This document shows, one piece after another, positions 8,378 through 19,621 of a stretch of 23,772 nucleotides of DNA. The DNA is from a virus, in IMG/VR virus record IMGVR_UViG_3300035698_014629, positions 1 to 23,772 of that record; one strand, given 5' to 3'. The translations under genes were made by a program, and so were the position numbers. How positions within the stretch are numbered: position 1 is the stretch's first letter; each line of letters begins with the position of its first letter. The notes under the pieces are model-generated. The model searched no databases. It was not told the DNA's origin and saw nothing but the letters and a program-made list of their open reading frames with translations.

Positions 8378-9907
8378 TTAATCCATCCCTGCGCTAATGT
8401 CTGCGGCTATTCGATTAGCTTCTTGTTTATCAATCGAAGCTGCCAGCCTCTCGATCGATTGTTTTAGGTCCTGAAAAACTTTAGCTGCATCCGGGTTATA
8501 GTCTGGATTAGGGACTGACACCTCGCCAACGTCAAAGCCCATTCCGGACCCATAGCCCGGTATCGTTTCTCTCATGTACCGTTGGCCATATCTTTCAGCG
8601 ATCCCAACCGCCGCATCGGATGCGTCACCAGCCAACATGCCCGCTTCAAGCTGGCCCATGATCGCTTTGCGATGCAGGTTTCCAATGCCTGGGATGTCAG
8701 AAAGCGTACTCTCAAACAGGCCGCGGATCGTCCCCGTTCCCCCAGACCTTGGACTCATAAGCCCAACACCAGCAGCAACCGCCCGGCCCTGCTCTGTCGC
8801 GGCAACCATACCGCCGGTGCCGGAGGCTCGCAGTCCTGCCGCCTCCGTCGCGGCAAGATTCGACGACATCGCATCATTCATCGCAGTAAGGCCCCCAGTA
8901 CCAACACCAGGTCCAAACATTGGCAACAACTGCGCACGGCTGGTTCCAAATACAGATGCCATATCGCTATCCGATGCTGTATCTGCCCAGGACAATATTT
9001 CATTACCGGTCATACCTTTGATCGACATCAATGCTTTATCAGATTCCGTCAGCGGTTTTCCCGGCTGCTTTGTAAATGAGTCAGCTCGATCCATCGCTGC
9101 AACCAGGTTGGTTGCCATTGTCGAAAAAACTGCCGGTTTCATTTTCTTTTGCATACCGTGAATAATACGTGACATTGCAATTTCGGGATCGACACCGACT
9201 GATTGCAGTTTTTCGATCCCTTGCATCGCTCGCGGTAATTGACTTGCACGTTCTCCCGCATCCCGCGTCATTAAAGCAGCAAGATCAGCCATATCGTCGG
9301 TTGATTTATTAGGAAAGAATCTTCCCAGTTGCCCGATCATTCCAGCCCGTTCGACCCTGCCAGCTTGACTGATCGGGCCACCAGCCAGTTCTATCGCTGA
9401 CATAGCTTGCTCCCACGGCGCGGATGGATTGGCGCCGCCAAAAGCATTGAGCATTTCAACCTTTTGCATTGGCGTCGCGTTTGCAGGGCCGCCAGTTCGA
9501 AGTTGACCTACCTGTCTATCTAACTGCTGGCCAGTGGGATCAGAGACACCGTAATAACTTCGGATTGTCTCAACCGCGGCCTGATTAAACCCGAACTGAC
9601 TGTTTGCGGCGGCTGTTGTTTTACGCTGGTAATCGGCAAACTCGTCTTTAAGAAGCTGCACACCTGACCGCAGTACACCAACCGCTGCCTGTGCGGTCAA
9701 AAAGCCTGCGGCCATTTCACCGACCTTACCGACGATAGAACCCATCGGCTTATCCATATCCTCAAACGACTTAGTTGTTTTTTTGGCCTCGCTGTTTTGC
9801 TGTTTCAACTTGGAGATCATTTGTTCCTGCTTATTGACGACCTTTGCGAGATCAGCCAGGGCCTTGTCAGTATTCGCTGACGCTGTAAAGTCAAGTTTTC
9901 CGGCCAT
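8378..9907 (-). CDS. Tape measure protein
   Basis: 509 aa. The N-terminus is a helical, coiled-coil segment (LAKVVNKQEQMISKLKQQNSEAKK, about residues 19-43). It is followed by a hydrophobic Gly/Ala stretch (MGSIVGKVGEMAAGFLTAQAAVGVL, about 55-80) and long Ala/Gly/Met-rich helices, ending in a short helical tail (DLKQSIERLAASIDKQEANR). This architecture, with its place between the chaperone/tail genes and the hub, is that of siphovirus tape measure proteins, which set tail length and help DNA injection. At about 0.15 nm per residue, 509 residues predict a short tail of roughly 75 nm. No lytic domain was seen. The start overlaps the previous stop as TAATG. Confidence 0.8.
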   Translation of the reverse strand: MAGKLDFTASANTDKALADLAKVVNKQEQMISKLKQQNSEAKKTTKSFEDMDKPMGSIVGKVGEMAAGFLTAQAAVGVLRSGVQLLKDEFADYQRKTTAAANSQFGFNQAAVETIRSYYGVSDPTGQQLDRQVGQLRTGGPANATPMQKVEMLNAFGGANPSAPWEQAMSAIELAGGPISQAGRVERAGMIGQLGRFFPNKSTDDMADLAALMTRDAGERASQLPRAMQGIEKLQSVGVDPEIAMSRIIHGMQKKMKPAVFSTMATNLVAAMDRADSFTKQPGKPLTESDKALMSIKGMTGNEILSWADTASDSDMASVFGTSRAQLLPMFGPGVGTGGLTAMNDAMSSNLAATEAAGLRASGTGGMVAATEQGRAVAAGVGLMSPRSGGTGTIRGLFESTLSDIPGIGNLHRKAIMGQLEAGMLAGDASDAAVGIAERYGQRYMRETIPGYGSGMGFDVGEVSVPNPDYNPDAAKVFQDLKQSIERLAASIDKQEANRIAADISAGMD

Positions 9908-10374
9908 TATTTTACAACCCTTTTCTCTTTAATAGCTTCCAAATACTTGATCGTCATTTCCTCGACATTTTTTCCAAGCGCTCTTTCTTCGGACTTTGTA
10001 ACCGCGATAAGCTCTTTGCCTTTCGGCGGGTCTCCTCTTTTTTGCATCCAGAAATACCGCACGGACGGCGATGTTACAAACTTGCCCTTGACGTGTCCCT
10101 TTGTCCCGATAGGGCGAATGACCCGCAACAACTGCCGCTTAGCGTTGCCGGAAAATATCAGCGGCCCTTTGCCGAGCCGGTTTTTATAATTTTGATACTT
10201 CTTTGACCGCGGCTGGTAACCGTACTTCCTGGCCGCCCCAGGCTTAAAATGCAGCGGTGCTGTGCTGCTGTGCCATGATCGAACAGCCTGCTTTAATGCT
10301 TCGGTAACCGCATTGTCAAAGTGTTTCAACTTTGTATCCGGCCCTGCCTCAATTGATAACGTTAGAGAAATCAT
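9907..10374 (-). CDS. Basic tail/virion morphogenesis-like protein
   Basis: 155 aa from the ATG at 10374 (the frame is open four codons more to a TTG at 10386). The protein is basic. It carries LHFKPGAARKYGYQPRSKKY, followed by LGKGPLIFSGNAKRQLL and KGHVKGKFVTSPSVRYF, reminiscent of virion-morphogenesis or tail-completion proteins that bridge tail and neck. Its position between tail assembly chaperone and tape measure is unusual for that class, which normally precedes the tail tube gene. The N-terminal coding region overlaps the predicted -1 extension of the chaperone by 26 bases. The precise function is open. Confidence 0.6.
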   Translation of the reverse strand: MISLTLSIEAGPDTKLKHFDNAVTEALKQAVRSWHSSTAPLHFKPGAARKYGYQPRSKKYQNYKNRLGKGPLIFSGNAKRQLLRVIRPIGTKGHVKGKFVTSPSVRYFWMQKRGDPPKGKELIAVTKSEERALGKNVEEMTIKYLEAIKEKRVVK

Positions 10375-11130
10375 TTCCAAACTCAAGCCAAAGTAAGTCC
10401 GCTGCTGTCGGACAGTAGCTATTAAAGTGCCCGGCCTGCCAGCGCTTAAGAGTCAGCTGACGCCAGCCGTTTTTTTTTGTAGGCTAGGTAAGTCGAGTAT
10501 CGCTGACATGATCGACGACAGATTTGTCGTTGTAAGCAGCGATAAGATCATCACTTCATCGATGCCGACGCAGTAGTTTAACGATATTGCATCGATTGCC
10601 AGGCCAATCCGGTCGTTAGCTTCCAGTGTCATTTCGCCAGGATCGATGCCTGCCTCGATCCTGAAATCCTGAAACAGCCTCTCTGCTGCCCCGCTAATGC
10701 GTTCATACTGTGACAGGGCCTTAGTTACGAATTTACCGCAATCGTCAATCTGGATTGATTCCGGTAGGCCTGAACCGCCATTTAGCAACCTTATTGCCGG
10801 GACAATCCACTCTTGCCCATCGATCAGCGGGATTTTATGACCTTCCATCATGGTCTTGCGCCGGAGTTCCTTTTCAGTCGGTAGTTTCTCGGACTTGTAA
10901 TAACCGACCCACCAATCACCGCTGACCGATTTTGTCCAGACCTGCGCATCAGGATCATACCTGCATCGGTCGCTGCCGTCAGAACAGATAATCGAACAGG
11001 TTCCAGCCGGGCCGTTAGACGATGACCTGACCTCATATCCGGGCCGAATCATCTTAACCAGGTACTGATCACGAAGCGTTGCTACCCCTTCGATCTCATG
11101 CGGTCGGATTGCATACAGGAATTGGCTCAT
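10349..11130 (-). CDS. Predicted -1 frameshift product of the tail assembly chaperone (G-T-like)
   Basis: The 225-aa ORF ends shortly after a run of nine A (10478-10470 on the minus strand, codons CAA AAA AAA ACG). Slipping one base back leads into an open frame of 40 codons beginning NGWRQLTLKRWQAG, continuing PTAADLLWLEFGNDFSNVIN and stopping at 10349. The extension looks like real protein, with Trp, Leu and acidic residues in plausible order, and it fills the gap of 78 bases between the short ORF and the next ATG. Many long-tailed phages make a G and a G-T tail chaperone by exactly such a shift just upstream of the tape measure gene. Predicted fusion length is about 260 aa. The frameshift itself is not proven. 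Confidence 0.7.
10453..11130 (-). CDS. Tail assembly chaperone (zero-frame product)
   Basis: 225 aa, encoded directly after the tail tube gene, with TAATG overlap. No family motif is obvious. It contains a beta-rich N-terminal half (SGDWWVGYYKSEKLPTEKEL) and a helical C-terminal half (FGKFVTKAL-like segment, then AAERLFQDFR, IGLAIDAISLNYCVGIDEVMILSLL). It ends LQKKTAGVS just after an A9 run. The place two genes before the tape measure gene and the slippery run identify it as the probable G-type chaperone that keeps the tape measure protein soluble until tail tube polymerises. The assignment rests on synteny and the recoding signal, not on sequence similarity that I can see. Confidence 0.65.
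   Translation of the reverse strand: MSQFLYAIRPHEIEGVATLRDQYLVKMIRPGYEVRSSSNGPAGTCSIICSDGSDRCRYDPDAQVWTKSVSGDWWVGYYKSEKLPTEKELRRKTMMEGHKIPLIDGQEWIVPAIRLLNGGSGLPESIQIDDCGKFVTKALSQYERISGAAERLFQDFRIEAGIDPGEMTLEANDRIGLAIDAISLNYCVGIDEVMILSLLTTTNLSSIMSAILDLPSLQKKTAGVS
10470..10478 (-). promoter_or_regulatory. A9 slippery heptamer (A_AAA_AAA) for -1 frameshifting
   Basis: Nine consecutive A on the minus strand, phased C-AA AAA AAA A-CG in the zero frame. This contains A_AAA_AAA, a known efficient bacterial slippery sequence. A GC-rich segment follows, with a GTCAGCTGAC palindrome and an AGCGCT palindrome a few bases downstream that could form structure. The -1 frame is open for 40 codons after it. 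Confidence 0.65.
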
Positions 11131-12041
11131 TAAGACAGGCCCCCGAAAGCGATAACCTTATTTGAGCCGTCAAACGTCGGCGTAATTGTTACCGATGCGG
11201 CAACCCGATCACCATCGGAACCGCTGAACCCATCGTAAGTCATCAGCCCTGCATCGATGGACAGTGTGATCTGATTGGCCCCATCCAGAGTTCCGGCATT
11301 TTCAAGTGCAGTCAGCGTTATAATAGAGTCCGTTTCACTCTGGGCCTGCCCCAACAGTCCCCAGCTGACAAAATCATCCAAATCCTTTGTCGATATGCTG
11401 ATCGATGGCCGCTGTGCTATGATCGCAACGTGTGTCGGATATGGCAGGCCGCTGCCGCCATCAACAATAACCTGATTCCCAAAGTCAACCGAAACATTAC
11501 TGACACCGTCCAGCGTGGTTCCGTTCAGACTGATACCGCCGAGAACATACGCCTCGGCAGCTACAAGAACCCCTGCATCAAGTGCCTGACTGCCAGCAAA
11601 TGCTATCGGCGATGTGGATCCATCAGACGACGTGAATACGCCGCGGTAATTCAATGTCGCAGCTCCCATGTGCGGAATTTCAAGCGAAACAGGATAAACC
11701 AGACCGGCCAGTGCCGTCGCCTTAATATGATTCGATCCTGTGGCTCTTGTTCCTGTGTTGGCGATCTTTTGCAGGTAAAACTCAAAGTTTGACGCTGCAA
11801 TTGCAACACCATCCATAGGGTCAGCCGATGTAACAAATGCGTTTAGTGCTGCCTTGATTGCGTTTGTCGAAAATGATATTTCCGGGGATGCACCGGGGAT
11901 CCCCACGAATCCAGGGCTGACAAGGCCGGAACCTGTAAGCAGCAGTTTAGCAAGATTCGGACTGAATCCCGATGACAGAATCTGGTTTATTACCGTCGAA
12001 CCTGTCTTAACGCTTGATATTGTGTGTAATGTCAAAGCCAT
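11130..12041 (-). CDS. Major tail tube protein (probable)
   Basis: 303 aa of mainly short beta strands and Gly/Ser/Ala loops, with few charged patches, like tail tube and neck beta-sandwich proteins. It has no transmembrane segment. Position is the main support: after the tail terminator-like gene and before the chaperone and tape measure genes, where siphoviruses encode the tube. The segments DGVAIAASNFEFYLQKIANTGTRATG and GMATLNYRG-like strands recur in tube proteins only loosely. The leader carries a strong AAAAGGGGCTTTTG Shine-Dalgarno motif, consistent with high expression of an abundant structural protein. Confidence 0.65.
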   Translation of the reverse strand: MALTLHTISSVKTGSTVINQILSSGFSPNLAKLLLTGSGLVSPGFVGIPGASPEISFSTNAIKAALNAFVTSADPMDGVAIAASNFEFYLQKIANTGTRATGSNHIKATALAGLVYPVSLEIPHMGAATLNYRGVFTSSDGSTSPIAFAGSQALDAGVLVAAEAYVLGGISLNGTTLDGVSNVSVDFGNQVIVDGGSGLPYPTHVAIIAQRPSISISTKDLDDFVSWGLLGQAQSETDSIITLTALENAGTLDGANQITLSIDAGLMTYDGFSGSDGDRVAASVTITPTFDGSNKVIAFGGLS

Positions 12042-12055
12042 TTCAAAAGCCCCTT

Positions 12056-12526
12056 TTAATTTGCCAGGCCCCAGGCCAGGTCGATCTTACAATAATAAAT
12101 ATTTTCGTCATCAATCCGCTGGGCGGATTCGGCGATAGTCCATGACCGCGTCAGCAAGTAACCAGGCGTGCCGGACAAGCCCTGACAGTCAGAAATAATC
12201 CCATCAAGAAAATTCAGGAACTCGATCTCCGCCTCACCAGGGCTGGACTTGTACGCCTCACTGATCGCACGTTCCAGGTAAAGCGTCATCGTGCCGCTCG
12301 CGGAATAACTTTGAGCAGCCACCATATCACACGACAGCCCGTTAAGCAATATGACCGCAAACGGCCTGACGAATGTGTCAGGGTGATATTCAGAAATATA
12401 GATATGTGCCTTTGCCGCCGCTGACGTCGCTGACGATGTTGCCGTTTTAAACGTGGACGAATTTGCAAGCAGATTCTGCAATGCCTCAACAGCCTTGCCA
12501 ATATTTCCGGACGCTGCCAGTGTCAT
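12056..12526 (-). CDS. Tail terminator/completion protein (probable)
   Basis: 156 aa. The N-terminal helix (GKAVEALQNLLANSSTFKTA) followed by HIYISEYHPDTFVRPFAVILL is typical of tail terminator or minor tail proteins (lambda U/HK97 gp10-like folds), which cap the tail tube and join it to the head. Its length fits. It is encoded immediately before the tail tube gene. The start ATG overlaps the stop of the large adhesin gene as ATGA. The C-terminal half (NIYYCKIDLAWGLAN) ends with beta-strand residues. Family match is by pattern only. Confidence 0.6.
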   Translation of the reverse strand: MTLAASGNIGKAVEALQNLLANSSTFKTATSSATSAAAKAHIYISEYHPDTFVRPFAVILLNGLSCDMVAAQSYSASGTMTLYLERAISEAYKSSPGEAEIEFLNFLDGIISDCQGLSGTPGYLLTRSWTIAESAQRIDDENIYYCKIDLAWGLAN

Positions 12527-14859
12527 CCGTTCCCCCTTGCCCCGCCGAATGATCTACCTGAACCACCACCACCGCCAACAGCAATTGCTGCCGCATACTC
12601 AATCCCCATATCGCCGCCAACCTCCGCAAGTACCTCGTCTGCGGTCAACACGGTGTCATATAACCTCGAACCCATAAGCACTATAGATCCGCCCTGCGTG
12701 CCGGATGGATGCGAACCCCAGAACAGGTTCGCGAAGGTTTGTGTTGCGTAAGAATGGTCCAATGTAATCTTCTTGCCACCAAGCCAGATACTGCAATAAA
12801 CATCTGTTCCACTTTTTGATAAGGATATGGTGCAATTTTGGTTTCGATCAAATTTTACTACCGAAGATATAGCGGCGGTAGCTGAACCGCCAACTTTATT
12901 GACCAATACAAAACTATGGCCAAAAACGTCATAAACGACAGCAACATAATTGTCTGCATCCTCACTGACCGATGCCAGATAAATGAAGCTAATGTCTTCC
13001 CCAGACGATTCTCCAGCCGTATCGTAATCGCCAAACGTAAGAACAAACTGACTGACAAAAGTCCACGAATCCGGAAATGTTGCCGGAGTAAATGATAGCT
13101 TGTCATGCCCACGTGCGGCTGCTTGGCCATGCCACTCCGTTGGAACAATAGATTGCGAGAAGGCAACTCCATCGATAAGAATGTCAAATTGAGCGTCTAA
13201 CGGATCCGCTCCGGCCTCGGCATAGAGACATGCCCTTGCCCTTGTTTTCGTTGCAGTAGGCGTTCCAACGCCGTCGGCAGTCGCTACAACTGTCATCGTA
13301 TATTCCGACCAGCGATCGGGGAATACCCAAATTGATAGACGCTCTTCGTTATTATTAGCTCCGTTTTCGTTATCATAAATTCGGCTGGTGAAATACACGA
13401 GTGTTCCTTTGCCCTTGTTATTTCCGGCCCCGTCGCCGAATTGACCTTTGACACGAACGTTAAATACATATTGCCGACCTGGAACCGCATCAGCGGCTAA
13501 ATTATAACCTAAATCGATATACTTAATAGCCGTGATCGGGTCTGTGTCGTTTTGCCATCTAGCACAATTCCCGGCGAGATAGCCGACCCATTTATCTGTG
13601 TTGTAGGTGTTGTCTACGACCGTTGTTGACTGTGCTGTTGGGTTGTTTCCAGCAACGTTACCGCTCTCTTTTTCCAGCAGCATCCCTTGCTTATAAACAA
13701 TCGGTACGTTTGGCAGGTAATAGCTATCCTGCCCCGCCGAAAACCAAACATTATTAGCAGAATCAATTCCGGCAATTCTTATCACATCGGTTGTCGCTCT
13801 GGCAATATTAGCAATTTTCGTCCAGTGATCTATGTCCCCGCTGGCCCATGCTCCAGTATAAGCACCAAACCCTGTGGATTGGGAAGAGGCTGCTGCATAA
13901 AAGTTGTTTGCAACTTGTCGGAATCCAAAAAAGTTATACGCCCTGTTGTAGAACGTGCTGTCGGTACGATTGACATCAATCGCTAAGACTCTTGAGATGG
14001 AATCATCAGACAAGTCCTGCTTAAGAACACCCATCGGTGCTGCACCGTCCGAACCCCAAAGGATACAGTTTCCGGCTGGAACCCATACGCCACTGGTCGG
14101 ATGCATACTGGTGTACGGTAATATCACCTGCGTTGCCCCCCATGTACCATCCCCACTGTCAACTAACCGCATAAGAGCGGGATAGGTATCGCCGTAAACA
14201 AGGTAAGCCTGTATAACTCCTTCCATCGTACCGACAATACAGTGCGAATGTCTTCCCTCCATATAAGCTGGATGGTACGCTTTAACAAAAGTTTTTCCAT
14301 CGTCATAGCTGACATACGCACATCTGGCGTTGTTATCAACTAAGGTACTCTTGTACTCAGTTACAAAGATAGTACCGTTGACTTCCTGAATTCCGGTCCA
14401 CTGCGGCACTGAAGCCTGGTCGGTCAGGAAGCCGCTTTCTATGGTTTTTGTGAATGTACTTGAATCAGCGGGCTTTCTCCACATCTCGCCAGAGGTATCA
14501 GCAACTGTTTTGCTTGTAGCAACCAAAACAGATCCCTTACTTGTTACGAATATGTGGGTTGGCGACCGGTCAAAAGTCTTTAAAGTAATAAATGTTTTTC
14601 CGCCATCAGAAGTCTTACAAACTGTGTTATAGTTTTTCAGACCATACACCCAGTATCCATCAGTAACACGAGCGTCAAAGCCCAGGACTGTTGTGAACTC
14701 AAACGGGGGCACATAAACTTCGGCTTGTTTGCGCACCGTGTCAATTGCAAACGATGTTCCTTCGTTATTGTACCCTGCCGTTGTTCGGGCAAACGTAAGC
14801 GGGCTGCCCGATACAAGATCGTTTGCAGAATTACCGTTAGACTCAAATATCAATGACAT
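12523..14859 (-). CDS. Large adhesin: Asp-box beta-propeller plus LamG-like domain
   Basis: 778 aa. Residues about 60-400 contain Asp-box motifs (KTSDGGKTF, VSYDDGKTF), marks of sialidase/BNR-type beta-propellers. Residues about 440-580 (WVGYLAGNCARW..., RQYVFNVRVKGQF..., WSEYTMTVV...) look like a jelly-roll carbohydrate-binding domain. Residues about 590-740 (SWTFVSQFVLTFGD..., DNYVAVVYDVFGHSFVLV, NCTISLSKSGTDVYCSIWLGGKK) resemble a LamG-like concanavalin fold. A Gly-rich tail (GGGGGSGRSFGG) follows. The sialidase Arg triad could not be recognised, so binding rather than catalysis is more likely. The gene has a strong AGGAG site and lies between head-tail joining and tail genes, an unusual place for a receptor-binding protein. 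Confidence 0.7.
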   Translation of the reverse strand: MSLIFESNGNSANDLVSGSPLTFARTTAGYNNEGTSFAIDTVRKQAEVYVPPFEFTTVLGFDARVTDGYWVYGLKNYNTVCKTSDGGKTFITLKTFDRSPTHIFVTSKGSVLVATSKTVADTSGEMWRKPADSSTFTKTIESGFLTDQASVPQWTGIQEVNGTIFVTEYKSTLVDNNARCAYVSYDDGKTFVKAYHPAYMEGRHSHCIVGTMEGVIQAYLVYGDTYPALMRLVDSGDGTWGATQVILPYTSMHPTSGVWVPAGNCILWGSDGAAPMGVLKQDLSDDSISRVLAIDVNRTDSTFYNRAYNFFGFRQVANNFYAAASSQSTGFGAYTGAWASGDIDHWTKIANIARATTDVIRIAGIDSANNVWFSAGQDSYYLPNVPIVYKQGMLLEKESGNVAGNNPTAQSTTVVDNTYNTDKWVGYLAGNCARWQNDTDPITAIKYIDLGYNLAADAVPGRQYVFNVRVKGQFGDGAGNNKGKGTLVYFTSRIYDNENGANNNEERLSIWVFPDRWSEYTMTVVATADGVGTPTATKTRARACLYAEAGADPLDAQFDILIDGVAFSQSIVPTEWHGQAAARGHDKLSFTPATFPDSWTFVSQFVLTFGDYDTAGESSGEDISFIYLASVSEDADNYVAVVYDVFGHSFVLVNKVGGSATAAISSVVKFDRNQNCTISLSKSGTDVYCSIWLGGKKITLDHSYATQTFANLFWGSHPSGTQGGSIVLMGSRLYDTVLTADEVLAEVGGDMGIEYAAAIAVGGGGGSGRSFGGARGNG

Positions 14860-15999: not shown

Positions 16000-18066
16000 T
16001 TATGCAGTGTTTTTCTGCAGGGTCCGCCAGTCAAGGCTCTTGACGCCACAGTCGATGTACACTTGATAAATCAATCCTTGAACGTCCGGGCCAGCATTGA
16101 ACCGTTCCAGCGTCGGCTCTTTCTTGCCGTTTAGGAACGCAACTTCAACTGTGTCCCAGAATGTGCCGTTCGCAGCCAGATACCAGGTCGTTGCTGAATA
16201 CCCGGTATAGGTCAAGTTCGACAATCTCGGATCGATAATCGGTGTCATCAGCCCCTTGAAGATGTTCTTGACCGGGTGTTTTTTTGTCGAAGCAGACCCG
16301 TCGGTTGCCATAATCATATCAGATTCAAGCAGGCCGCGGGCAAGGTTCTCCAGTTCCGGCGGCACGATCAGATATGCAGGCTCGATGTTGATCGGCTCAT
16401 TATCGCTGTCAACCTGAACACGCATCGCCGCGATTGCGGCGGCAAGTTTATCCGCTCCCAGCGGCGATGTTGTGTTCAGATTACCATGATCGCTGTGGAA
16501 CAATGCCGTAGCGTCGTCCATATTGCCGTTGGCCAGTAAGTGTGTGTATACCAGCTTGTGTACTGTTGCCATTGCCTTTTGGCCCATCTTCATAGGCTTA
16601 CGCGTGAACACGCCCAGATCATCGTTGATGATGTCCTGACGACTTATGCCAAAGTTCTTGGCGTAAGTGTCAACGTTAAATTGCTCTTTTTCTTCGCTGG
16701 TTCCGCCGTACTTGATCTCGCCGCCGTTGGCAACCTTTTCAAGAGCGCCCGTGTCAGTGTCGCGAACTCTGGTCATCGTCTTGAAATCACTTGCTGTTCC
16801 GGGCGTTGTCCAGCCGTCCCAGGTAGCGCCTGCCAGATTATAGCCCTTCATCAGGCTCTTTTTGGCAACGTTACCAAGGATAGTTGGCAGTGATTGTGTT
16901 GAGAACGCAGCACGTATCATCTCATCGCGGCCTCGCGGAACAGTCCTGCCCTCAAGTGACAGGGCCTCTGCGCAAACTGAACGCAGGTCAATGTCGCGGA
17001 TTTCGTCCGCTTGATTTGCCGTCTGTTCACCAAACACTTTGACAACAGCATCGTCCATGCCAGCGCGAAGAAGAAGGCCAGCTTCCAGGATCGTTGTGTT
17101 GATCTGACGGGTTCGCACGATGCCCATCGGTGCTGAACCAACACCGGCTCGGAGCTGTGCGGTTCGCAGAGCGCCGAAGAATTCGGTTTGAGCCTCGGTA
17201 ACAGATTTGCCATCTGTTATCATTCGCTCAACCAGTTCATCCGGTATCGCTGAACCGTCAGCGAGCTGGCGGATCTGCGCAACGCGGCTGCGTTCCAGCT
17301 CTGCGCCTTTTTGTATCTGCTCGCCAATGTTGTGATTGTTTCGGGTTTCGTCTGGTTCTTCGACGTTGTCCGCCCGCGTCTGTGCCTGCTGCTTATCGTA
17401 ATCGGCCCTTAGCGCGGCGGCTTGGTCATCAGAAAGACCTTCGAGTTTGAATCCTCGTTCTGTAAGCCATTTTTCAAAATCCACGGTTCGAATCTCCTTG
17501 AACAATTTTAAATTGCGCTGTTTCAGGCCAGCGTTAGCCGTTTCGTTTTCTGCTCTGTTTTTTGCGTTACTGTCAGCCGCGATCGGGACGATCGAGTTTT
17601 CTTTTAGTTCCCACCTGGTCGAAACCCTCAACGCTCGATCTTTTGGCGCTGTGAACGTGCGGCCATCGACCACACTGGTTTTGCCTTTTTCGATAGTGGT
17701 ATAATTCAGCACCCTGTAACCAACCGAATTGTCTGTCAAATGCCCATCCCGCATCAGCTCAAACGCCGACACGCCAGACTGATTGTTTGCATAGTGGTTA
17801 GTTGCCACAAGGCTTTCTTTAACGACGCGGACATTCCGGCTTGACCCAACTATTGCTGCGACGGATGATCTGTTGTGGCTGTCAAGCAATGGAACCTGTC
17901 GGTTTTCAGGCAGCACGACACCGCTCATCAGCAATACTTCGCAAACAGGTTCCCAACGATTATAGTCGTAAACAACGACCGGTGTTTCTGTGGCGATTAC
18001 AGCCTCCACCGTACGCTCCTTTTCATTGAGCGTATCAAACCGAACCTGATAGCCGCGAACGGTCAT
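16000..18066 (-). CDS. Prohead protease/major capsid protein fusion
   Basis: 688 aa from the ATG at 18066, one base after the portal stop. The frame is open to 18165, but that would overlap the portal by 98 bases. Residues 1-175 are an S78 (HK97-type) prohead protease: RFDTLNEKERTVEAVIATE, VPLLDSHNR with candidate catalytic His64, and LTDNSVGYRV with candidate Ser114. Residues about 210-370 are charged and helical, suiting an internal scaffold (QAAALRADYDKQQAQTRADNVEEPDE). The C-terminal 300 residues resemble Mu gpT-like major capsid proteins (NFGISRQDIINDDLGVF, ALFHSDHGNL, VEVAFLNGKKEPTLERF). The protease presumably cleaves itself from the capsid subunit during head maturation. Such fusions are known in other phages. 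Confidence 0.87.
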   Translation of the reverse strand: MTVRGYQVRFDTLNEKERTVEAVIATETPVVVYDYNRWEPVCEVLLMSGVVLPENRQVPLLDSHNRSSVAAIVGSSRNVRVVKESLVATNHYANNQSGVSAFELMRDGHLTDNSVGYRVLNYTTIEKGKTSVVDGRTFTAPKDRALRVSTRWELKENSIVPIAADSNAKNRAENETANAGLKQRNLKLFKEIRTVDFEKWLTERGFKLEGLSDDQAAALRADYDKQQAQTRADNVEEPDETRNNHNIGEQIQKGAELERSRVAQIRQLADGSAIPDELVERMITDGKSVTEAQTEFFGALRTAQLRAGVGSAPMGIVRTRQINTTILEAGLLLRAGMDDAVVKVFGEQTANQADEIRDIDLRSVCAEALSLEGRTVPRGRDEMIRAAFSTQSLPTILGNVAKKSLMKGYNLAGATWDGWTTPGTASDFKTMTRVRDTDTGALEKVANGGEIKYGGTSEEKEQFNVDTYAKNFGISRQDIINDDLGVFTRKPMKMGQKAMATVHKLVYTHLLANGNMDDATALFHSDHGNLNTTSPLGADKLAAAIAAMRVQVDSDNEPINIEPAYLIVPPELENLARGLLESDMIMATDGSASTKKHPVKNIFKGLMTPIIDPRLSNLTYTGYSATTWYLAANGTFWDTVEVAFLNGKKEPTLERFNAGPDVQGLIYQVYIDCGVKSLDWRTLQKNTA

Positions 18067-18067
18067 A

Positions 18068-19621
18068 TCATCTAACGGCGATAAGTCGCGGACGAATAGA
18101 TCGTTCGCCTTTGTTGTCTTCTTCGTCTTCATCTTCGTCGTCGATTTCGTCTTTTTGCGGTTCATTATTTGCTCCCTGTGTATTTTGCGGCGAACCGAAC
18201 TTCAGTCCAAGTTCTACCATTTTCTTTTGTTCGCGGGCACGCTGTTCAAGTTCTTTTTCCCAGTCCTTGCCCTGCCTGCTGAATTCAGCGGCCAGCGTGG
18301 TTGTCCCGATCTCAAGCCTTGTCTTTTGTGCGTTGGCTTCTTTTTGCGGATCGACATGTTCCTGTCCCGGCCAATACCACTTAATATTTGCGTCGGTCAG
18401 ATCAATAGCCTTGCCAGGCGATAACAGATAACCAGGTATCAACATTGCCTCGGCCAGCCATCGCCTAAATATACGATTGCAAACCTGCCGCTCAACCCAG
18501 GCCTGCGTTGTCGAGATAAACCTAAAATAGTTCTGCCAGTCCAGCCTGCCGCTGGCATAATTATATTTTTGTGAATTCCCCGCAGCCACGTTGTACGGCA
18601 TATTCAAACAGCGAGCGATCTCGTTAAGTATCTCCGCTTTAAATTCGGCATAAGTCGATGTCGGCTGCTCTGGTTTGTATTGCTGCATTTCCCAGCCAAT
18701 CGGCAAGGTCGTCAGCATATTGCGTTCGATGTCAAACGTTTCCATTTCTTCAAGGTCAGCGGCGTCCTCGGTAAGCCCACCGGTTGACTTAATAACCGCT
18801 GCAAAGTTAGCCGCTGTTTCAGCAGCATCAACCGTCGCTGCTGTGTATCGCCGTAATGACGCAAACAGCAAAATAGCAGGCGTCAGCCATGGTACGCCGC
18901 GGCTTTGGCCTGGACGATCCATCCGATACAAGTGAATAATACGATCAGCAGGGATCATATCATAATCAGAAGGCGTAAGACCGTAGGTCGATGAGTCTGA
19001 ACCGGGGTGCTTCTTTGATATATAATAAAGCGATGGCCTGCCGTACTCATCAAAGGAAATGCCCTGATTGATCTTGCCGTCACCGCGTATCTCGCTAGCC
19101 CCTGCCAGAGAAAACGGAGTATGCAACCGATCAGGCTCGACCGTTTGCAATCGCAAACGCGGCCCTCGAATGCCGTTTCGATTATCAAAGACCAGAACAA
19201 TTATGCCCTCACCACAAGAATCCTGACCGCGCGAGGCGGCCAGCTTTAGAATATCGGCCCATGACTGTAGGCCCTGAATATCACAATCGGCGCACCATTG
19301 CGCAAACTTTGATTCCACGTCGTTATTGAACGCCTCGGAACCAGCGGTAAATTGTAATTGCGGCCCTATGCCGACAATATCATTTGCTTTGGTATCAACG
19401 ATACCGGCTGCGTAGCTGTTATTTCTGATTTCATAGCGAACACGGTTGCGTAGTGTTTCCAGGCTTACCGCTATCAGGCTGTCAGCATCTCGATTGTCAG
19501 CGGTCAGAAAATGTTTTTGCGTATGCCTATCGTTATTGGCGGCATCATAGTTGCGCTTACGTACTATGACCGCTTGCGGTTTAGGCTGCTCAATTGAATT
19601 GCCAAATTGATCTAAGATCAT
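18068..19621 (-). CDS. Portal protein, lambda family
   Basis: 517 aa. The N-terminal third has the lambda-family portal signature: LETLRNRVRYEIRNNSYAAGIVDTKANDIVGIGPQLQ (about residues 54-90), where an R-N-N-x-Y-A helix leads to the V-G-x-G turn. The middle contains RGVPWLTPAILLFASLRRYTAATVDAAETAANFAA, the helical stem region. The C-terminus ends in a strongly acidic stretch (DEIDDEDEDEEDNKGE). Twelve copies form the DNA-conducting vertex. The gene follows the gpW-like gene as in lambda (W then B). Length is typical for the family. Assignment is firm. Confidence 0.88.
   Translation of the reverse strand: MILDQFGNSIEQPKPQAVIVRKRNYDAANNDRHTQKHFLTADNRDADSLIAVSLETLRNRVRYEIRNNSYAAGIVDTKANDIVGIGPQLQFTAGSEAFNNDVESKFAQWCADCDIQGLQSWADILKLAASRGQDSCGEGIIVLVFDNRNGIRGPRLRLQTVEPDRLHTPFSLAGASEIRGDGKINQGISFDEYGRPSLYYISKKHPGSDSSTYGLTPSDYDMIPADRIIHLYRMDRPGQSRGVPWLTPAILLFASLRRYTAATVDAAETAANFAAVIKSTGGLTEDAADLEEMETFDIERNMLTTLPIGWEMQQYKPEQPTSTYAEFKAEILNEIARCLNMPYNVAAGNSQKYNYASGRLDWQNYFRFISTTQAWVERQVCNRIFRRWLAEAMLIPGYLLSPGKAIDLTDANIKWYWPGQEHVDPQKEANAQKTRLEIGTTTLAAEFSRQGKDWEKELEQRAREQKKMVELGLKFGSPQNTQGANNEPQKDEIDDEDEDEEDNKGERSIRPRLIAVR

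Follow-up and report, generated by a model that had tools for sequence, protein, structure and literature searches.

A putative recoding switch at a run of nine adenines in a tail assembly chaperone family absent from Pfam, PHROGs and NCBIfam

Near the 3' end of a putative tail assembly chaperone gene, the stretch of viral DNA analysed here (the window; 23,772 nucleotides, positions 1 to 23,772 of IMG/VR record IMGVR_UViG_3300035698_014629) carries a run of nine adenines (A9) that, judging from its sequence, is very probably a recoding switch, real but well precedented and of a known type, in a chaperone family still missing from the main databases. The likely form of this switch is -1 recoding of the lambda G/GT type, in which ribosomes would shift at the heptamer A_AAA_AAA within the A9 run. 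Most of the product would end at the zero-frame TGA (the G-like protein), while a minority of ribosomes would shift to the -1 frame at the heptamer inside A9, and the shifted, GT-like product would gain a C-terminal extension of 40 residues. If phage lambda is a guide, the tape measure protein would be coated by the G part and the major tail protein brought in by the T part, with both parts absent from the finished tail. We infer that the fusion is made, that ribosomes are its makers, at what rate they make it and which partners it binds. The observations on which we draw are all comparative, namely the sites, the reading frames, the joint conservation of site and extension, the gene order and a fold match.

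The chaperone gene, its A9 run and the -1 frame

The zero-frame chaperone gene occupies positions 11130..10453 on the minus strand and encodes 225 amino acids, from ATG to TGA. Its 3' end reads CTA CAA AAA AAA ACG GCT GGC GTC AGC TGA, with the A9 run at 10478..10470 on the minus strand (T9 on the plus strand) and the in-phase heptamer A_AAA_AAA at 10477..10471; this is the longest A or T run of the whole window. An earlier note on this DNA had placed the heptamer six codons before the zero-frame stop and had proposed a -1 extension of 40 residues, and both claims are borne out by the codon reading: the stop (10455-10453) is the sixth codon past A_AAA_AAA, and the -1 frame (10349..10471, minus strand; 40 codons and TGA) is open to the TGA at 10351-10349. 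After the slip it reads NGWRQLTLKRWQAGHFNSYCPTAADLLWLEFGNDFSNVIN, with the motif conserved among relatives centred around W..G...Y.PT..DL. The same note held that the open -1 frame has exactly the length of the gap before the next gene. The gap is indeed filled, but the fit is not exact, as the frame runs on into the next gene, overlapping it by about 25 nt from its ATG (10374). A second contig, 99.87% identical over 6022 nt, has the same A9 run and an extension that differs by a single L-to-F change.

Relatives and the joint conservation of site and extension

When single tail proteins of the window were used as queries, the 99.87% identical contig was the sole match, and INPHARED held no match for the window's tail proteins or for the chaperone family. 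Relatives were reached first through an alignment of the capsid and then through an alignment of the chaperone. The capsid alignment led to many loci, among them two that carry the chaperone gene, namely the viral contig L020, in which the matched part of the chaperone shows 32% identity, and the contig L111, whose label, Lentisphaerae, comes from a metagenome assembly. The chaperone alignment yielded 12 more viral loci, of which two nearly duplicate others. Together with profile searches, 53 distinct family members, window included, are recognized; the 52 others are very divergent and come mainly from Planctomycetota genomes and viral contigs. In the genome search, matches were found in 11 of 392 genomes of Planctomycetota, the phylum of Rhodopirellula. 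For the classes to which two of the matches belong, the counts were 11 of 397 and 24 of 398 genomes, in samples that overlap. Overall, several percent of the sampled Planctomycetota genomes contain a relative of the family. In the phylum of L111, only L111's own genome matched among 289 scanned. Because the relatives are concentrated in Planctomycetota genomes and not in L111's phylum, the host of the window is probably a planctomycete, as far as this distribution indicates. One genomic locus (L191, in the Planctomycetota genome G291) and the viral contig L020 have the same chaperone gene, G291 containing the L020 prophage. Two Planctomycetota genomes, G1041 (L224, L236) and G1345 (L231, L237), have two copies of the chaperone gene each, presumably representing two prophages each; in G1345 one copy has an A9 site and the other has none.

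A run of eight to ten adenines (A8-A10) lies near the 3' end of the gene in 39 of the 53 members, with eight adenines in five, nine in 29 (the mode) and ten in five, and is found in all three codon phases. Four further members have another in-phase heptamer, C_CCT_TTT in L111, G_GGA_AAA in L192 and G_GGA_AAC in L205 and L220, bringing the members with an in-phase site to 43 of 53. The remaining ten (L201, L210, L211, L218, L222, L226, L232, L233, L235 and L237) lack both site and extension; in some of them the stop overlaps or adjoins the start of the next gene, and five of them cluster on the tree. According to the earlier note, relatives in which the A run is missing or the -1 frame is interrupted by stops would refute its claim, and conservation of the -1 frame in related phages would be a check. 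We found the -1 frame open beyond the zero-frame stop in 38 of the 39 members with an A run, and the members that have no site are also those that have no extension. Of the 39 A-run members, 34 have a -1 frame that is recognized by a profile of the extension, as do all four members with heteropolymeric heptamers. In L195, L196, L198 and L200 the -1 frame is open and too diverged for the extension profile, and when L195 and L196 are compared past the zero-frame stop, 12 of 19 differences fall at third codon positions of the -1 frame. In L227 an A8 run lies about 38 nt ahead of its zero-frame stop, and the extension, matched by the profile, is in the +1 frame. This may reflect a one-A assembly error or a real run-length variant, the length being taken from a metagenome assembly; a real variant could be read solely by polymerase slippage or by a +1/-2 shift.

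The extension of the window ranks first among 875 six-frame peptides (E 2.9e-7) when searched with a profile built from the extensions of the other members. In a jackknife in which each locus's own extension was left out, the true extension was the top six-frame match in 11 of 13 first-round loci; the profile missed L178 and L111, in both of which the motif can be seen by eye, and both were matched in a later scan with a profile that includes them. In the loci examined, ORFs other than the chaperone gene have 2.6 runs of at least nine adenines per Mb, and in most loci the chaperone run is the only A8 or T8 run in the sequence examined. As such runs are rare and the extension is recognized by a profile of the others, the arrangement is not due to chance. 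The tree of the 53 proteins has long end branches and many open forks, and the three states (A run, other heptamer, neither) need about ten changes on it, which suggests that sites have probably been lost or exchanged more than once across the family, the details being unsure.

Ribosomes or RNA polymerase as the slipping machine

The protein would be identical whether the ribosome or RNA polymerase slips, because re-reading one A equals adding one A. Ribosomal slippage is favoured because Shine-Dalgarno-like sequences peak 7-18 nt upstream of the heptamer and because four members have heteropolymeric heptamers. Of the 39 A-run members, 18 have such a sequence in the stimulatory window ahead of the run, whereas the same genes would predict 5.5 (simulated P 5e-5, for members that are related and not independent), the positions forming a sharp peak, and a spacing of 6-17 nt has been used as proven stimulatory in Escherichia coli (PMC4066793). 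The 60 nt downstream of the site form somewhat more stable folds than control windows do (mean z -0.69), a mild tendency only, and no strong hairpin conserved across members was found there. In the window itself, the site lacks a Shine-Dalgarno-like element, and the 75 nt tested for a hairpin show nothing notable (z -0.17).

Counting against ribosomes alone is the length of the run, which is about nine in every phase, though seven or eight adenines suffice in two of the three phases. The same fusion would arise if RNA polymerase, alone or mainly, slipped on A9, with one A added or two removed, such that a share of the mRNAs is already in the -1 frame and is read normally by ribosomes; we regard this as rather unlikely, yet several features of the family are in its favour. 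The run is 8-10 long with a mode of nine (29 of 39) irrespective of its codon phase, and because of this, polymerase slippage may contribute or dominate. Among in-phase runs that begin at codon position 3, 67 of 82 in other ORFs are exactly seven long against none of ten in the family, and among those that begin at position 2, 12 of 13 against two of 23 are exactly eight long, although the control ORFs are unfiltered open frames and the members are related, their counts not being independent trials. A ribosomal preference for longer runs could also give a length that is independent of phase. The A8 run of L227 with its +1-frame extension lies beyond ordinary -1 slippage and would fit a slipping polymerase, unless it is a run-length error of the assembly. 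Run length as such also suits the polymerase, for which a threshold of about nine A or T has been described (PMC1088944), 34 of the 39 A-run members having nine or ten adenines; many bacteria also show selection against A/T runs of nine, owing to transcriptional slippage (PMC1088944). On the other side, the heteropolymeric heptamers of the four members should not make the polymerase slip, and the upstream Shine-Dalgarno-like peak points to ribosomes.

Transcriptional and ribosomal events may both occur at one site (reviewed in PMC5009743), and dnaX offers a parallel: slippage on A9 is transcriptional in Thermus thermophilus (PMC3711429, PMC1088944), and at A_AAA_AAG it is ribosomal in E. coli (PMC5009743, PMC1088944, PMC3711429). 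The present family resembles dnaX in its A9 site and in comprising both members with a long A run and members with a heteropolymeric ribosomal heptamer; it differs in that the shifted product is the shorter one in dnaX and the longer one in the phage chaperone. It is tempting to speculate, although we hold it to be somewhat doubtful, that polymerase slippage on A9 determines, entirely or in part, how much extended chaperone is made relative to the short form, and that other lineages have switched to ribosomal heptamers. If so, tail assembly would, like dnaX, use a form of recoding that moves between transcription and translation. A natural series in which slipping by ribosome and by polymerase can be compared is provided by the constancy of run length in each phase, the lineages with other heptamers and those with neither site nor extension.

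Both of these mechanisms take the -1 segment to be fused to the chaperone. That it is instead a separate small gene or a remnant, unfused, or that A9 is an assembly error, is highly improbable: the -1 frame of some relatives holds ATG, GTG or TTG codons, but the window past its site, where an independent start was accordingly rejected, and L194, L196, L198 and L200 have none of the three, 39 divergent members drawn from many assemblies share the arrangement, and the second contig has the A9 run as well.

Identity of the chaperone and its gene neighbourhood

The gene order, the tape-measure matches of relatives and one fold match support the identification of the gene as encoding a tail assembly chaperone, as the earlier note had proposed. 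That note's remark that the upstream protein has no obvious family match also holds, since no family was found for the chaperone in Pfam, PHROGs or NCBIfam (13-22 members tried); the extension matched no Pfam family, and none significantly in PHROGs. Similarity to catalogued families does not define tail assembly chaperones, which are a very diverse class. An AlphaFold model of the chaperone made from 13 sequences (pLDDT 85) is rich in strands in its N-terminal part and helical in its C-terminal part. The sole significant fold match of this model in BFVD is A0A6J5LCU1 (E 1.9e-4, probability 1.00), a tail assembly chaperone of an uncultured Caudovirales phage, which is alike in fold (TM 0.56 by target length) and yet differs in having 131 residues against the window's 225, 17% identity and a TM of just 0.35 by query length. 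Two further, non-significant BFVD matches are also annotated as tail chaperones, and a search of the PDB with the chaperone model gave nothing significant.

The neighbours of the chaperone gene, all on the minus strand, are consistent with this identity. Upstream lies the gene for an inferred major tail protein (11130..12041, 303 aa), which has no family matches of its own and is named from its position and from homologues likewise placed in relatives. Downstream, a 155-aa gene (9907..10374) precedes that for a putative tape measure protein (8378..9907, 509 aa), named from its position and its alignment with L020 and L111; names for both tail proteins in the window thus depend on position and homology only. 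Gene order is similar in the ten loci examined, where the next gene after the chaperone encodes about 460-610 residues; in the window and L020 the 155-residue gene intervenes between the two. Its product is 46% identical in L020, beyond which the search found none, and the gene is absent from the gene order of the other relatives examined. A major-tail-protein profile matches an upstream gene in eight of the ten loci, and tape-measure or PhageMin_Tail profiles match the next gene in L177 and L186 with scores a little short of the Pfam cut-off.

The slippery site of phage lambda is G_GGA_AAG, whereas most of the present family has an A8-A10 run and four members use G_GGA_AAA, G_GGA_AAC or C_CCT_TTT. 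The family otherwise resembles lambda gpG/gpGT and other frameshifted tail assembly chaperones in the place of the gene just before the tape measure gene, in a frameshift near the 3' end with a -1 extension, and in the low sequence similarity among phages, certain tailed phages likewise having no obvious stimulator (PMC5009743). The window and L020 differ from the lambda type in the extra 155-aa gene before the tape measure gene, and the family as a whole differs from catalogued chaperones in having no detectable similarity to Pfam, PHROGs or NCBIfam families. It thus adds a tail assembly chaperone family that these three databases miss, and offers a simple rule for annotation, which is to look for an A8-A10 run towards the end of the gene that precedes the tape measure gene.

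Elsewhere in the window, a protein of 778 residues is encoded among the connector and tail genes (12523-14859), where relatives have small or other large genes, and positions 16000-18165 encode a 721-residue protein in which head maturation protease and major capsid protein are fused. Among GenBank phages with similar capsids, six of those inspected are annotated, and several have sheathed tails, a different type.
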